From positions 1 to 48,605 of the forward strand of contig JALONH010000021.1 of the NCBI GenBank assembly GCA_025455005.1: 48,605 nucleotides of DNA, in the 5' to 3' direction. The DNA is from Cytophagaceae bacterium. GTDB taxonomy: Bacteria; Bacteroidota; Bacteroidia; Cytophagales; Cytophagaceae. Position numbers and translations under genes: made by a program. Of this stretch, positions 358-5,687 are shown one piece after another (the first letter of the stretch is position 1; each line of letters begins with the position of its first letter). Under the pieces are notes generated by a model that was not told the DNA's origin, did not search any database, and saw nothing but the letters and a program-made list of their open reading frames with translations.

Positions 358-1407
358 ATGTCAGAAAATCTAAGTTCAGAAGATGCTTTTTTAGAAAACG
401 ATGAAGAGCTCTACGAGCATCTGCGCATCGTTTGTGAAAAAGGGCAGATGCAAATGCGCTTAGATAAATTTTTAATGGATCGTATAGCGAACGCTACCCG
501 CACTAAAATTCAAGCCGCTATAGAATCTGAATCCGTCCGTATCAACAACCAACCTACTAAAGCGAGTTATAAAATAAAACCTTTGGATGTCATTACCATC
601 TGTTTACCCCACCCTCCAAAGGACGATACTATATACCCTGAAAATATTCCTTTAAATATTGTACATGAAGATGATGATCTTCTTGTAGTAAACAAACCAG
701 CCGGTATGGTGGTGCATCCTGCTTATGGCAACTGGACGGGAACCTTAGTCAATGCTCTCGTCTATCACTTTGACCATTTACCTACGCATAAAAATGGTGC
801 AATCCGTCCGGGTCTGGTCCATCGTATAGATAAGGATACGTCCGGCTTACTCGTCATTGCTAAAAATGAATTTTCTATGAACTTCTTAGCGCGACAGTTC
901 GCCGATCATTCCATAGAACGAACCTATTATGCACTCGTATGGGGGGTACCCAAAGAAGATAGCGGGACCATTCAAAGCTATTTGGGTAGAAGTCTTAAAG
1001 ACCGAAAAATAATGGCGTCCTTCTCTGATCCGGAGAAAGGGAAACGCGCCGTTACTCATTATAAAGTGCTGGAACGTTTTCATTCTTGTGCATTGGTTCA
1101 ATGTAATCTAGAAACAGGACGTACGCATCAAATTCGGGTACACTTTCAATCTATAGGACATCCGCTCTTCGGCGATACTACCTATGGTGGGGATCGAATC
1201 GTGAAAGGAAACCCGACCGGAGCGTATAAATTATTTGCTGAAAAGCAACTGCAGGCATTACCCAGACAAGGTTTACATGCAAAAACGTTAGGATTCCTTC
1301 ACCCTACTACAAAAGCCTTTATCTCGTTCGACAGTCCCTTAGCAGACGACTTGCTCCACGTTATTCAGGAGTGGCGTCAATTTGCTTTACAAGTAGATGC
1401 CACCTAA
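358..1407 (+). CDS. RluA-family (RluD-like) 23S rRNA pseudouridine synthase
   Basis: This enzyme isomerises uridine to pseudouridine in RNA, most likely 23S rRNA. The N-terminal third holds an S4 RNA-binding domain (RLDKFL at about residues 34-39). The catalytic domain has the family motif HRIDKDTSGLL starting at His155, with Asp158 as the predicted nucleophile, and a later GRTHQIRVH motif. The length of 349 aa is usual for RluD. An upstream in-frame TTG at 349 lies inside the -7 promoter element, so the ATG at 358 is preferred. The exact target uridines (RluD versus RluA/RluC type) cannot be fixed from sequence alone. Confidence 0.9.
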   Translation: MSENLSSEDAFLENDEELYEHLRIVCEKGQMQMRLDKFLMDRIANATRTKIQAAIESESVRINNQPTKASYKIKPLDVITICLPHPPKDDTIYPENIPLNIVHEDDDLLVVNKPAGMVVHPAYGNWTGTLVNALVYHFDHLPTHKNGAIRPGLVHRIDKDTSGLLVIAKNEFSMNFLARQFADHSIERTYYALVWGVPKEDSGTIQSYLGRSLKDRKIMASFSDPEKGKRAVTHYKVLERFHSCALVQCNLETGRTHQIRVHFQSIGHPLFGDTTYGGDRIVKGNPTGAYKLFAEKQLQALPRQGLHAKTLGFLHPTTKAFISFDSPLADDLLHVIQEWRQFALQVDAT

Positions 1408-1528: not shown

Positions 1529-2368
1529 TTGAATTCTAAAGGCATTGTGTTTATGCTCCTTTCCTTGTGGGCTTTCTCTTGGATGCACGTAAGTGTCAAA
1601 ATGCTATCGTATATACCCGTCAGCGAACTCATTTTTTTTCGTAGTATCTTCTCTATTCTTGCTACCGGATATATCTTATACCGTCAACAACTGTCCCCTT
1701 GGGGAACAAACAAACGAGGCCTCGTCCTTCGTGGATTATTGGGATTGAGTTCGTTGTATTTCTTCTTTTATGCGTTGCATTTGCTTCCCTTAGGTACTGC
1801 GATTATCATAGGAAATATTGTTCCCTTTCTAACTTTATTGTTTAGTCATTGGTTAGACAAGGTATCCGTTCGCCCTATACAATGGGGGGTAATCGTGTTA
1901 GGTTTTATTGGTGTTATCAGTATTAAATTTGGAGATAGTAGTCTGTCCTGGTTGGGTGTGGTGTGTGCGGTTCTAGGTGCAATCGGCACAGCAGGAGCGC
2001 ATATTACTGTAGGTCGATTAAAATCAACAGAGCCGATAGCGGTAGTGATGTTCTACTTTCCATTCATGAGTTTACCTATTGTAACCCCTTTGACCTATAT
2101 CGAATGGGTTACGCCACAAGTGTCGGATGTGGTATGGATACTCCTGATGATGATAGGTACACATATTGGGCAATGGTACTTAACTAAAGCGTATCATACG
2201 GCCAGTATCACCGCATTGTCCGGTACCTATTTTGTTGGTATACTCTTATCTTTAGTAAATGGATTTTTCTTTTTTGATGAACAATTAGAGTTGGGGCAAT
2301 GGTTTGGTAGTAGTTTAATTGTGTTGGGACTAGCACTACATCTGGTCTTACAAAAAAATAATACTTAA
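1529..2368 (+). CDS. EamA/DMT-superfamily transporter
   Basis: This is an inner-membrane permease of the drug/metabolite transporter superfamily. The 279 aa are nearly all hydrophobic and fit about ten membrane helices in two homologous halves, the usual DMT layout. The first half contains 'SELIFFRS' and 'LPLGTAIIIGNIVPFLTLL'. The second contains 'AYHTASITALSGTYFVGILL', typical of the EamA repeat. The start is a TTG at 1529, and an ATG at 1553 would cut into the first helix. The substrate is unknown. The 3' end overlaps the convergent lipoprotein gene by 4 bp. Confidence 0.85.
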   Translation: MNSKGIVFMLLSLWAFSWMHVSVKMLSYIPVSELIFFRSIFSILATGYILYRQQLSPWGTNKRGLVLRGLLGLSSLYFFFYALHLLPLGTAIIIGNIVPFLTLLFSHWLDKVSVRPIQWGVIVLGFIGVISIKFGDSSLSWLGVVCAVLGAIGTAGAHITVGRLKSTEPIAVVMFYFPFMSLPIVTPLTYIEWVTPQVSDVVWILLMMIGTHIGQWYLTKAYHTASITALSGTYFVGILLSLVNGFFFFDEQLELGQWFGSSLIVLGLALHLVLQKNNT

Positions 2369-3417
2369 GGTTTTCCTTTTCTAAATACAAGTCCATTATT
2401 TCCTACTCCATATAAAACATTATTTTTTATAATAATATCTTGAATAAACGGTTTATCGACGATAGTCGTATCTATCGTCCAATTGGCTCCACCGTCTCTA
2501 GTGTACATAAGCATACTTTTATTTTCCAATATATCCCCACCCGCTACTATTACCTCTGACTCATTAAGAGCGACCAAAGAATACAGGTAGGGTTCATGGA
2601 CGCTAGTAAACGTTGGTATTGGAAGTTTATACCAATGATAGCCACCATCTGTTGTTTTAAAAACCTGACTTTTTTGAATAAATCCAAAGGAGGTACCTGT
2701 TACATATCCAATAGACGCATTCACCATGTCGAGTCCACAAAATAACATATTGGTTGAATCTAAGGTACCCCAATCTATATCCATTAAGGACCACGTTTTA
2801 CCACCATCCTTTGTACGGTACATATGTCCTTGATGCGCACAAATCAACCATTCTAGAGCGGATAATCGTTCCATTTTAATCAGTCGTTTTGTATTAGGAC
2901 CACCTAAAAGATGTTGCCATGTTGCTCCAAAGTCCGGGGAATAATATAAAACACCTAGGAATACATCCGAACCACCTATTAAAAAGAGTTCATTAGTGGA
3001 AGGATAATAATTTATACGTTCAACCGTCTTTAAAGAATCCGGAATATCTAATTCCGTCCACGTAAGACCGGCATCATACGATATAAAAAAGTAGTTAATA
3101 TCTCCGGAGGATAAAATAGTCTGTTCATCACGGAAAGCCATATCACGGTTTACTTGTGATCCAAAATCCACCATACGTGTAAAGGTCAACCCGGTATCCG
3201 TACTCTTGTATACATTTCCATTATTGTCGCTCATATAAGCGGTTGTATCATTGGTAAATAGAATAGCGTGAATATTATTGGTAATGGTAGTTGGAATAAT
3301 CTCTACTGGATCAGAAAATCGAAAAGCGACAGCTGGTATAGGTTCCGGTTGTTCACAAACTATGGAACAACTTTGTAGTATAAATAAAAAGAGAAGAACA
3401 AAAAGACTTCGAAGCAT
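2365..3417 (-). CDS. BNR/Ycf48-like beta-propeller lipoprotein
   Basis: A predicted exported lipoprotein of 350 aa. The signal peptide ends in a lipobox with Cys17 (LQSC). The body contains at least six BNR/sortilin-type strands of the form (S/D)xDxGxTW, for example 'STDTGLTF', 'YDAGLTW', 'SPDFGATW', 'TKDGGKTW', 'TTDGGYHW' and 'TRDGGANW'. These are characteristic of Ycf48/PSII-stability-like and sialidase-like propellers. No sialidase active site is evident, so a binding or structural role is more likely. A strong intrinsic terminator ends about 20 nt before its ATG, leaving little room for a private promoter. Expression may therefore depend on read-through from the ECF-type promoter near 3664-3688. 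Confidence 0.8.
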   Translation of the reverse strand: MLRSLFVLLFLFILQSCSIVCEQPEPIPAVAFRFSDPVEIIPTTITNNIHAILFTNDTTAYMSDNNGNVYKSTDTGLTFTRMVDFGSQVNRDMAFRDEQTILSSGDINYFFISYDAGLTWTELDIPDSLKTVERINYYPSTNELFLIGGSDVFLGVLYYSPDFGATWQHLLGGPNTKRLIKMERLSALEWLICAHQGHMYRTKDGGKTWSLMDIDWGTLDSTNMLFCGLDMVNASIGYVTGTSFGFIQKSQVFKTTDGGYHWYKLPIPTFTSVHEPYLYSLVALNESEVIVAGGDILENKSMLMYTRDGGANWTIDTTIVDKPFIQDIIIKNNVLYGVGNNGLVFRKGKP

Positions 3418-3440
3418 AATATTATAAAAATATAAAAAAA

Positions 3441-3470
3441 TTAGGGGTTGTACCGAAACACAACCCCTAA
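3441..3470 (-). terminator. Intrinsic terminator just upstream of the BNR lipoprotein gene, read leftward
   Basis: An 11-bp perfect stem (3441-3451 with 3460-3470) has an 8-nt loop. On the minus strand it is followed by seven T residues and a further T-rich run (3440 down to 3421). On the plus strand it is followed by AAGGGG, so it works only leftward. No annotated gene lies to its right on the minus strand. It must therefore end, or attenuate, a leader transcript starting near 3655. Confidence 0.75.
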
Positions 3471-3610
3471 AGGGGAAAAATATTAAAAAAATAGTATAAG
3501 GTTTTTTGTAAGACTAGATCAGGGTTCAAAAAAAAGAAACTTAAGGATACAAAAGACCATATAGTGTTTTCATCAAGTATTGCGTTTAATTCTTTGTTTT
3601 TAGAGTACAT
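3467..3610 (-). CDS. Candidate 47-aa small protein in the ECF-driven leader
   Basis: An open frame begins with ATG at 3610 and ends at a TAG (3469-3467) that forms the 5' edge of the terminator stem. The predicted peptide starts MYSKNKELNAILDEN and has a hydrophobic, aromatic-rich second half ending in FFNIFPL. I recognise no family and see no ribosome binding site, though this genome shows few. The support is position: it lies wholly inside the transcript predicted from the GGAAC/CGTCT promoter and stops exactly at its terminator. It could equally be a non-coding RNA or a leader peptide. Confidence 0.35.
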   Translation of the reverse strand: MYSKNKELNAILDENTIWSFVSLSFFFLNPDLVLQKTLYYFFNIFPL

Positions 3611-3663
3611 CTTACATCTCAAAAACAATCCGTTGCAACCGTTTTAGTTGGTTTACATAAAGT

Positions 3664-3688
3664 AGACGCCGTATTTTCGTTTCGTTCC
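3664..3688 (-). promoter_or_regulatory. Leftward ECF-type promoter (GGAAC-N15-CGTCT)
   Basis: Read on the minus strand, GGAAC at 3688-3684 is followed after 15 nt by CGTCT at 3668-3664. This is the classic -35/-10 layout of ECF sigma promoters. It is identical in both boxes and in spacing to the rightward copy before the sigma gene. Predicted transcription starts near 3655 and runs toward the 47-codon ORF, the terminator and the BNR lipoprotein. Confidence 0.6.
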
Positions 3689-3761
3689 CGATATTTTTAA
3701 ACTTTTTTTTATTATTTTTAACGTACAATAAAAAAGTTTCAAAATCCAATTGGGAACGAAA
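3680..3761. repeat. Imperfect inverted repeat joining two divergent ECF promoters
   Basis: The outer arms TTTCGTTCCC (3680-3689) and GGGAACGAAA (3752-3761) are perfect inverses. The inner arms, at about 3699-3713 and 3727-3739, are A/T-rich and pair except for two extra T residues. The outer arms contain the two -35 boxes. The A/T-rich centre could act as an UP-like element for both promoters or as a repressor site. Confidence 0.6.
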
Positions 3762-3777
3762 GTTCTTTTTTACGTCT
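3753..3777 (+). promoter_or_regulatory. Rightward ECF-type promoter (GGAAC-N15-CGTCT)
   Basis: GGAAC at 3753-3757 and CGTCT at 3773-3777 are separated by 15 nt, as in typical ECF sigma promoters. The -10 box ends 15 nt before the sigma gene ATG at 3793, so the leader would be very short. The obvious reading is autoregulation by the encoded ECF sigma factor. Confidence 0.65.
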
Positions 3778-3792
3778 TATAGATAGTACAGC

Positions 3793-4344
3793 ATGAACGA
3801 ACCGGAGTTGATTAGTGGCTGTGTGCAAGGGAGTCGGAAAGCGCAACAATTTCTATATCAAAAATATAGAGGCTTATTGTTTGCGATATGCTGTCGCTAT
3901 ACAAAGGATAAAGACGAGGCCAAGGATATTTTTCAAGAAGCCTTCATTAAAATTTTTGAAAACATATCGAATTATCGTCAACAAGGATCATTTGAAGGTT
4001 GGCTAAAGCGTATTACAGTAAATACTGCTTTAAATTATTACAGGAAAAATTCGAAATCGGTCACTTCCAGAATAGATGAATCGTTCGAAGTGGAACAGGA
4101 TGAACCGGCAGAAATCTCTTGGATAGCATCCATTCCGGAAGCTGTTTTATTGAAAAGTATCTCTGATTTACCCGAAGAGTTACGCGTAGTCTTTAACCTA
4201 AGTGCCATTGAAAACTATTCGCACAAAGAGATTGCAGATTTGTTACAAATAAAAGAGGATACGTCTCGTACACGGCTTTTACGAGCTAGAAGACGACTAA
4301 TGGAACAATTAAGTAAATTATATAAACACCAAGTAAACCAATAA
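3793..4344 (+). CDS. ECF-family RNA polymerase sigma factor
   Basis: A 183-aa sigma factor with only regions 2 and 4, as in the ECF group. Region 2 spans roughly residues 18-85 and includes 'DEAKDIFQEAFIKIFENI' and 'FEGWLKRITVNTALNYYRK'. Region 4 lies at about 118-172 and includes 'LPEELRVVFNLSAIENYSH' and 'IADLLQIKEDTSRTRLLRAR', the helix-turn-helix that reads the -35 box. The next gene, 2 nt downstream, is its likely membrane anti-sigma factor, and an outer-membrane protein follows. Matching GGAAC/CGTCT promoters on both sides of the intergenic region suggest autoregulation. The inducing signal is unknown. Confidence 0.92.
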   Translation: MNEPELISGCVQGSRKAQQFLYQKYRGLLFAICCRYTKDKDEAKDIFQEAFIKIFENISNYRQQGSFEGWLKRITVNTALNYYRKNSKSVTSRIDESFEVEQDEPAEISWIASIPEAVLLKSISDLPEELRVVFNLSAIENYSHKEIADLLQIKEDTSRTRLLRARRRLMEQLSKLYKHQVNQ

Positions 4345-4346
4345 AC

Positions 4347-4895
4347 ATGTCGGAGTCCAAATTCGATAGTATTTTTAAAACTAAGTTAGAGTCTTATGAG
4401 GCCCTGCCGGAAGAGGCCATATGGTCCTCCATAGAAGACCGTTTGAATAAACAATCGATATGGAGAAGGTATTATCCCTATATAGCTTCTATTACGTTGG
4501 TACTACTCAGTATTGCTTTGTGGGTAGTGTTTCAAAAAGACGCTTCTACCACCCCATCGAATCCTATAGATACTACCTATAATAATTCGAACACAACAGT
4601 GTCTCCTTCTAATCCGAACGAAACAGGTTCGACAAACCCACTACTTCCTTCCAGCAAGAAAAAGGGAACGCCCACTGCAAAGGAGCATACTCCTTCCGTA
4701 GACCCTATACCTCTTACTTCTATTGCCCAAACGGATAGCATTTCTACGCCTGTTGTCAGTACTACAAACAAAAGCGATACTTCGGCTAAAAAACCAAGTG
4801 TTGTGATTGTTAAAAAGAAAAAACCCGTGTATATTGTTCAACAAGACACGATAGTAAAAACAGATACTATACAAAAGAAACGTCGTGATCGTTAA
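4347..4895 (+). CDS. Probable membrane anti-sigma factor
   Basis: A 182-aa protein starting 2 nt after the sigma gene. An N-terminal cytoplasmic segment, 'FDSIFKTKLESYEALPEEAIW', has the form usual in Bacteroidota anti-sigma partners. One membrane helix follows at about residues 43-62. The remainder is a Ser/Thr/Pro/Lys-rich, low-complexity periplasmic tail ending in Lys/Arg. No zinc-binding HxxxCxxC motif is present. The anti-sigma role is inferred from position and architecture, because the sequence is too simple for a firm family assignment. Confidence 0.65.
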   Translation: MSESKFDSIFKTKLESYEALPEEAIWSSIEDRLNKQSIWRRYYPYIASITLVLLSIALWVVFQKDASTTPSNPIDTTYNNSNTTVSPSNPNETGSTNPLLPSSKKKGTPTAKEHTPSVDPIPLTSIAQTDSISTPVVSTTNKSDTSAKKPSVVIVKKKKPVYIVQQDTIVKTDTIQKKRRDR

Positions 4896-4904
4896 ATACG
4901 CCCC

Positions 4905-5687
4905 ATGATACGCTGCTTACTGTCTGTTTTGACTTTTATTCTTTTATCTTTTTTGAGTACCGCACAAACCGACACCATTTATATTGAAGAAGAGGAATAC
5001 GACACCATCGTAGCCGCCCCTGTTATCATAGAAAAACAAGTGATCGTTTACCAAGCCCCACCGGCTATACTATATGAATTGACTCGAGGGTTAGGCGTCA
5101 AATTATACTCCGGAGGAGTCTACCAGTTCGTATGCGACTGCAGTGATACAGTAAGTAGTTTTGTAAAAAGCTCCACCGGTACAGAAGTGTTTGTTGGTCT
5201 TGGTCTTGGTTATCAACGGTATGTTCTAAAACGTTGGTCCCTTGCTTGGTGGACAGATATTTTTCATTACCAACAAAACATTCAACTACGGGATGAAAAC
5301 TTAACGATACAAAATGAAAAAAATAGTTTTTGGTATGGACAAACCAGTTTAGTGGTAGGCTGGGACATTTGGAAACCAAAAAATAAGAAATGGGTGTGGA
5401 CCATTCAAGCGGGTGGTGGCGTTCAGTATTTATTGAATCGATCCGGTTATTGGCCTTCCACAGGACCGTCTTCTCCCTCTATACCTGTAGAGGATGCTCA
5501 TGTGAAGTGGGTAGGGCATATTCAGGCTAATGCGTTGATGACTCAACGAGTATCCGAACGTTTGTATGCACAGTACGGTATCTATTACCAAGTGGATGTA
5601 TCCGGACCCACAGTATCCAGTAATCCGTATTATTTTTATCGAAATAGAATAGGGGCTTCGTTCGGAATGATTTACCGCCTTCAATAA
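4905..5687 (+). CDS. Predicted outer-membrane beta-barrel protein of the ECF operon
   Basis: A 260-aa exported protein with a signal peptide of about 21 residues ending STAQ. After a short acidic segment (IYIEEEEYDTI) it has alternating aromatic and glycine-rich strands, such as 'VFVGLGLGYQRYVLKRWSLAWW' in part and 'AQYGIYYQVDV'. It ends in 'RNRIGASFGMIYRLQ', which suits the last strand of a small barrel. It lies 9 nt after the anti-sigma gene, so it is probably the third gene of that operon and may be the envelope sensor or an output of the sigma system. I recognise no specific family. Its end overlaps mazG tail to tail by 7 bp. Confidence 0.6.
   Translation: MIRCLLSVLTFILLSFLSTAQTDTIYIEEEEYDTIVAAPVIIEKQVIVYQAPPAILYELTRGLGVKLYSGGVYQFVCDCSDTVSSFVKSSTGTEVFVGLGLGYQRYVLKRWSLAWWTDIFHYQQNIQLRDENLTIQNEKNSFWYGQTSLVVGWDIWKPKNKKWVWTIQAGGGVQYLLNRSGYWPSTGPSSPSIPVEDAHVKWVGHIQANALMTQRVSERLYAQYGIYYQVDVSGPTVSSNPYYFYRNRIGASFGMIYRLQ

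Follow-up and report, generated by a model that had tools for sequence, protein, structure and literature searches.

The locus examined here raises the question of what an ECF sigma factor controls when its gene is preceded by two identical ECF-type promoters placed back to back. The window, meaning the whole 48,605-nucleotide stretch of Cytophagaceae bacterium DNA that was analysed (contig JALONH010000021.1), contains the following features at this point:

3664..3688, minus strand: P2, a leftward promoter with the same boxes and spacing as P1 (GGAAC 3688-3684, N15, CGTCT 3668-3664)
3680..3761, no strand: imperfect inverted repeat joining P1 and P2 (arms 3680-3708 and 3730-3761, 3-nt gap)
3753..3777, plus strand: P1, ECF-type promoter of the sigma operon (GGAAC 3753-3757, N15, CGTCT 3773-3777)
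3793..4344, plus strand: ECF sigma factor, 183 aa, recognition helix TSRTRLLRAR (Sigma70_r2 2.5e-19, Sigma70_r4_2 1.2e-13)

We consider it likely that an autoregulated ECF sigma factor is controlled from this region, with its own operon read from P1 and a leftward unit read from P2. Free sigma would transcribe from P1 the genes for itself, a tethered anti-sigma and an outer-membrane barrel, and would transcribe the leftward unit from P2, both promoters presumably being used by this same sigma factor. To judge from the sequence, the locus is of an ordinary kind, in that an ECF sigma is autoregulated from an AAC/CGT promoter; more unusual are the matched leftward promoter, the Arg/GG variant described below and, above all, a split Dma-like sensor.

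Sigma factor, paired promoters and inverted repeat

The sigma factor consists of regions 2 and 4 only (Sigma70_r2 at residues 21-88 and r4_2 at 119-169) joined by a short linker, as in the ECF group (group IV). It scored 96.1 bits against the sigma70-ECF model TIGR02937 (cut-off 42.9), while its scores against the narrower Bacteroidota models TIGR02985 and NF058625 lay below their cut-offs. Read directly from the sequence, P1 ends 15 nt before the sigma ATG. A-rich stretches lie upstream of both -35 boxes, both repeat arms carry AAAAAAGTTTNAAAAT...GGGAACGAAA, and the outer flanks of P1 and P2 are alike too. The inverted repeat that the first-pass annotation had seen joining the two promoters stands, with a local score of 39 that was equalled in none of 2000 dinucleotide shuffles (largest 37); for the A-rich flank alone, with GGGAACG removed, the score was reached by 24 of 2000 dinucleotide shuffles. 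The pattern GGAACN{13,17}CGTCT matched three times in the window against 0.24 expected, and none of 100 shuffles reached three. The same annotation gave the coordinates and spacing of GGAAC-N15-CGTCT on both strands exactly but missed the third exact copy at 739-763 (+), which lies inside an rluD-like ORF (349-1407) and is probably due to chance.

The layout had also been likened to the known ECF promoter form, and the comparison is borne out by an AAC-type -35 and a CGT-type -10 before the sigma factor's own gene. For E. coli sigmaE, a -35 of GGAACTT and hallmark AAC and CGT boxes are given in passages of PMC6713349 and PMC8103513. The window agrees in having a -35 with AAC, a -10 with CGTC, a promoter just before the sigma gene and an Arg at the position of sigmaE R173; it differs in its second, identical promoter in the opposite direction, with 64 nt between the -35 boxes. 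A GCAACC box at 3635-3640 (+), upstream of the GGAAC promoter and with no GTC/ATC partner, has a counterpart upstream of the sigma gene of locus L074, and these unpartnered boxes are perhaps remnants of a commoner promoter form.

The promoter in relatives, its -35 base and the genome-wide motif

Conservation was examined in 196 sigma loci, mostly from Bacteroidota and including the window and its 11 paralogues, drawn in part from the best matches to sigma region 4.2 among 395 genomes (29 listed and 60 top matches chosen by hand). Repeat fetches were skipped (e.g. L105 = L076, L089 = L028, L090 = L029), L142 and L149 were excluded as having no usable sigma ORF, and the automatic choice of start codons may have introduced errors at some loci. 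The strict motif G[CG]AAC-N14-17-NGTC[TA] was found within 150 nt before the start in 55 of the 196 (shuffles: mean 0.59, largest 5), with a median of 49 nt from the -35 to the start codon in those 55 loci. An earlier set of 96 loci had yielded 26 forward and no reverse motifs within 150 nt of the sigma start. The strict motif precedes none of the other 11 sigma-like genes in the same genome. Where GCAAC is present two -10 forms recur, CGTC(T/A) and GCATCT, the latter mostly with slightly longer spacing.

Among orthologous sigma genes, GGGAAC lies close before those of G006, G009, G010 and G017 (three genera), followed in three of them by G; it was not found close before the sigma gene in four loci of genus g6 nor in the second G017 copy. 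Across the 12 members of the window clade, five have GGAAC close before the sigma gene and seven, including all four g6 loci, do not. A contig scan over 60 loci found no close relative, the best identity being 46% in a scan that may have omitted the records nearest the window, and the distant relatives compared reached 45-49% at best. Based on the recurrence of the P1 boxes, in four genomes as GGGAAC and in 55 of 196 loci as the strict motif, the proposal that the sigma factor drives its own operon is supported, and P1 as the promoter of an autoregulated ECF sigma is well supported by sequence comparison. The first-pass annotation had named a lack of conservation of the two boxes among relatives as what would speak against it; this is indeed what we found for P2 among distant relatives, but not for P1.

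The commoner -35 in our sample is GCAAC, and the window sigma has GGAAC. For numbering we used the letters of the E. coli sigmaE recognition helix. The residue names agree with passages of PMC6713349, in which R173 and R176 contact G-35, and T169 and S172 contact G-34. At the position of R173, the strict count gave Gln in 37 and Asn in 15 of the 52 GCAAC loci and Arg in all three GGAAC loci, and two more GGAAC loci with different -10 boxes (G010, G017) have Arg as well. Outside the strict GGAAC count are L012 (AATCT) and L014 (no GTC box), and a strict-type match in L150 (GTAAC with Tyr) was left out of both counts; the strict motif was absent from 88 of 125 Gln, 24 of 39 Asn and 12 of 15 Arg loci. 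In a tree of 172 sigmas, ten Arg tips fell within one clade of 12 (support 0.81), whose other two members are L040 (Gln, apparently frame-shifted in region 4) and L122 (Leu). The sequences compared indicate that, within one clade, a -35 with GG in place of GC is accompanied by Arg in place of Gln/Asn, and with ten Arg tips in that one clade the Arg/GG combination represents one change, not many. It stands as a correlation rather than an established contact, because the varying base is -34 and R173 of sigmaE touches G-35. Compared with the GCAAC...GTC/ATC promoters of other ECF genes in the 196 loci, the window promoter is alike in spacing and distance to the start and differs in having GG in the -35 with Arg in the helix, where theirs have GC with Gln/Asn. 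Prediction of promoters from such sigma residues is already described in passages of PMC8103513; if they hold, these promoter forms and the Arg/Gln-Asn pairing would help to predict targets of uncharacterised Bacteroidota ECF sigmas.

The first-pass annotation had further suggested that the regulon motif could be read directly from the window. This did not survive a scan of the 2.94-Mb genome, in which GGAACN{13,17}CGTCT gave 10 matches against 21 for the pattern reversed. The short motif is not enriched genome-wide, and an envelope regulon is therefore not readable from it. Of the 33 matches to GGAACGN{12,15}GTC (23 in the reversed control), 30 fall within ORFs of at least 100 aa, so that the proposed search upstream of envelope genes revealed no regulon; the other three are the P1/P2 pair and one site for which no ORF of at least 100 aa starting within 350 nt was found. 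We accordingly set aside a regulon defined by motif scanning of this genome, which offered nothing past the P1/P2 pair except that one site without a nearby ORF start. The extended pattern GGGAACGN{12,15}GTCT (that is, GGGAACG-N12-15-GTCT) gave three matches against two in the reversed control, namely P1, P2 and one inside a 957-aa ORF. The extended motif is almost unique to the P1/P2 pair in the genome, and the bare short pattern says little alone. In G006, G009, G010, G013 and G017 the extended pattern gave nine matches against 19 reversed, a scan that is incomplete for G006 and G009, for which the pattern is too narrow because their own sigma promoters have 16 nt there. In G006 a promoter-like GGGAACG-N15-GTCT (L257, 1501-1526) stops 16 nt short of a DUF2851 gene, which may be another gene controlled by the orthologous sigma, and in G017 one match (L252) is intergenic.

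The leftward promoter and its probable transcript

Leftward of P2 the window contains:

3467..3610, minus strand: 47-codon ORF (TTG-started form to 3628) with a hydrophobic second half
3441..3470, minus strand: intrinsic-terminator-like hairpin (fold -17 kcal/mol), then seven T
2365..3417, minus strand: lipoprotein-like protein with BNR/sortilin-type repeats, the first long ORF leftward (Sortilin-Vps10 4.1e-18)

From P2, a short RNA of about 220 nt to the hairpin would be made that encodes the 47-aa protein, and transcription might in addition run on into the lipoprotein gene. An ORF as long as the 47-codon one arose in 27 of 2000 shuffles (1.35%), and its homologue was sought in the other 18 family genomes with no convincing result (best E 0.088, with an internal stop). 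Its stop codon lies inside the 5' arm of the hairpin. The hairpin is terminator-like and may end the leftward transcript or attenuate it before the lipoprotein gene; terminator-like sites in the region scanned were not above chance (4 against 3.6). A lipobox-like LQSC can be read in the sequence of the lipoprotein-like protein.

Among the 196 loci, reverse-strand motifs were near chance (strict 5 against 1.8 in shuffles, largest 7; loose 7 against 4.9), and motifs on both strands occurred in six loci with the loose pattern (shuffles 2.2, largest 7) and in three with the strict one (0.4, largest 2). The back-to-back layout as a general rule was rejected on the reverse-strand count. A convincing pair of its own is found in G013, of the same family (L023/L093), with GCAACC-N14-AGTCT in both directions; 35 nt separate its leftward -10 box from the ATG of a gene whose product combines PKD domains with a type IX secretion tail (the ORF is 615 aa long with a TTG start). 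The pair in G224 (L198) is plausible, those of L217 and of L068, a paralogue from the window's own genome, are weak, and L107 has the reverse motif only. In G351 (L215), a plausible back-to-back pair of GCAACC type lies between an ECF sigma and a serpin-like lipoprotein ORF, both named by eye.

It might be held that P1 alone is a real promoter and that P2 is a by-product of the inverted repeat, an operator or a duplicated promoter arm giving no useful transcript. No P2-like leftward promoter was seen upstream of the family's orthologous sigma genes, the A-rich part of the repeat is matched by shuffles at the rate given above, reverse motifs overall are near chance, and a terminator-like hairpin lies between P2 and the first known leftward gene, all of which fit this account. 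However, the -10 box of P2 and its identical spacing are kept outside the repeat arms, the extended motif matches only one other genomic site, and G013 has a matched pair of its own, and we regard a sole P1 as quite unlikely. The proposal in the first-pass annotation that the sigma factor also drives a leftward transcript is retained in part: the near-unique extended motif and the G013 pair speak for it and the missing P2 before orthologues against it, and on the sequence features an ECF transcript probably does start at P2.

As to what such a transcript would be, the sigmaE-dependent small RNAs of enterobacteria offer one model, and the distance from promoter to hairpin would suit a small non-coding RNA of about 220 nt under sigma control. 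Most of that length, though, is taken up by the 47-codon ORF, the predicted structure of the RNA is unremarkable (z -1.3, with 19 of 200 shuffles as good), and no Rfam family was found in the window at the gathering threshold, and a non-coding product seems improbable to us. Slightly less so, if still on the unlikely side, is a long leader of the lipoprotein mRNA in which the hairpin acts as an attenuator, relieved as ribosomes reach the ORF stop codon in its 5' arm. The hairpin is separated from the lipoprotein ATG by just 23 nt, and in both G013 and G351 the gene that the leftward promoter faces codes for a secreted or lipoprotein-like product. The housekeeping-type promoter consensus is TTG-N19-TAnnTTTG. 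Allowing one mismatch, this consensus matched 27 times in the window against 29.8 expected and not at all in 3418-3792, which also favours a leader; against it are the strength of the terminator-like hairpin and the lack of visible conservation in relatives.

A putative two-piece sensor downstream of the sigma gene

The sigma gene is followed by two ORFs:

4347..4895, plus strand: 182-aa protein with an anti-sigma-like cytosolic domain, a hydrophobic (transmembrane-like) stretch, a putative periplasmic tether and a tail
4905..5687, plus strand: probable outer-membrane beta-barrel protein, 260 aa, with a signal-like hydrophobic N-terminus (partly by eye)

The hydrophobic stretch of the 182-aa protein begins at residue 42, and its C-terminus carries a conserved QDTI...DTI tail. 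Neither protein, nor those of the relatives, had a match in Pfam or NCBIfam, and the operon of sigma, small membrane protein and barrel recurs in family relatives. We examined the following genes in the 65 of 81 loci that passed the score limit (64 distinct, as L105 = L076). In 34 of the 65 the sigma gene is followed by a gene for a single protein of 408-674 aa, in which a hydrophobic stretch begins at residue 38-60. Within the window clade the first ORF is 180-213 aa in 12 of 12 members and the second 252-264 aa in 10 of 12, the remaining two having a second ORF of 300 aa in one case and none found in the other. The other 18 loci are mixed and include further short first ORFs, shortness not being unique to the clade.

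Profiles were built from 28 of the 34 one-piece proteins, 11 short proteins and 10 barrels. The short protein matched the N-termini of the one-piece proteins (P 1.3e-9) and of the family's own six (P 4.3e-8), with reversed controls at P 0.042 and 0.065, and the second protein matched the C-terminal barrels (P 4e-9 and 1.8e-11; reversed controls 0.086 and 0.0013). Alignment of eight short proteins revealed little shared in the tether, a poorly conserved polar stretch of about 100 residues, and a C-terminal tail in which DTI...DT is invariant, followed by basic residues; such a conserved tail is as expected of a putative docking site. A structural model of the window barrel was mainly beta but of low confidence (pLDDT 52), with mostly outer-membrane barrels among its top PDB matches and no PDB match at E<=0.001. 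The model of one of the one-piece proteins (L097) consisted of helices, a transmembrane-length helix, a long low-confidence part and an OmpA-like barrel, with block pLDDT values of 55-86 over most of the barrel and a best PDB match at E 2.4e-7.

This order of parts recalls the Das/Dma system of Bacteroides thetaiotaomicron, an ECF21 sigma with a dual membrane-spanning anti-sigma, in which, according to passages of PMC13088901, Dma comprises an anti-sigma domain, a transmembrane helix, a disordered tether and a beta-barrel and is encoded next to the ECF21 sigma. In the window the 182-aa ORF likewise lies next to the ECF sigma gene, 2 nt after its end at 4344, and an N-terminal anti-sigma domain and a transmembrane helix are indicated by the profile match and the hydrophobic stretch, sigma binding being predicted. 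The sequence of parts, from sigma gene through anti-sigma-like domain, transmembrane-like stretch and putative tether to beta-barrel, is the same, whereas the barrel is a separate protein with its own signal-like N-terminus; the sigma factor of Das/Dma is ECF21, and that of the window is placed at the ECF level (TIGR02937). By profile comparison, the downstream pair matches the two ends of one-piece Dma-like anti-sigma factors.

We tentatively propose, at somewhat less than an even chance, a two-piece dual-membrane anti-sigma in which Dma is split in one Bacteroidota clade. The 182-aa protein would hold the sigma factor and reach across the periplasm, its DTI...DT tail would dock on the separate barrel, and the state of the barrel would decide sigma release, with loss of contact freeing sigma for the back-to-back promoters in a self-amplifying response. 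If instead the two proteins were an ordinary anti-sigma factor and an unrelated porin, the absence of family-model matches for either and the identity of just 20-27% between the window barrel and its relatives would cause no surprise. Such a pairing is nevertheless unlikely, given that the two proteins correspond to the two ends of one-piece proteins encoded at the equivalent place, that the reversed alignments are far weaker, and that the lengths of both ORFs are so regular in the clade. The split Dma-like sensor is, we think, the new part of these findings, and no description of a split Dma was seen in the open-access literature searched. The Dma protein joins both membranes, and a version split by nature would reveal through which surfaces the signal passes, with the short conserved tail as a handle on how the state of the outer membrane reaches the sigma factor.

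In three further loci (L098, L106 and L140) an ECF sigma gene with a GCAAC promoter is followed by a gene for a tethered anti-sigma-like protein of 223-238 aa, and in L106 and L140 the next gene encodes a 316-aa protein that is PorP/SprF-like by eye, forming another two-gene arrangement.
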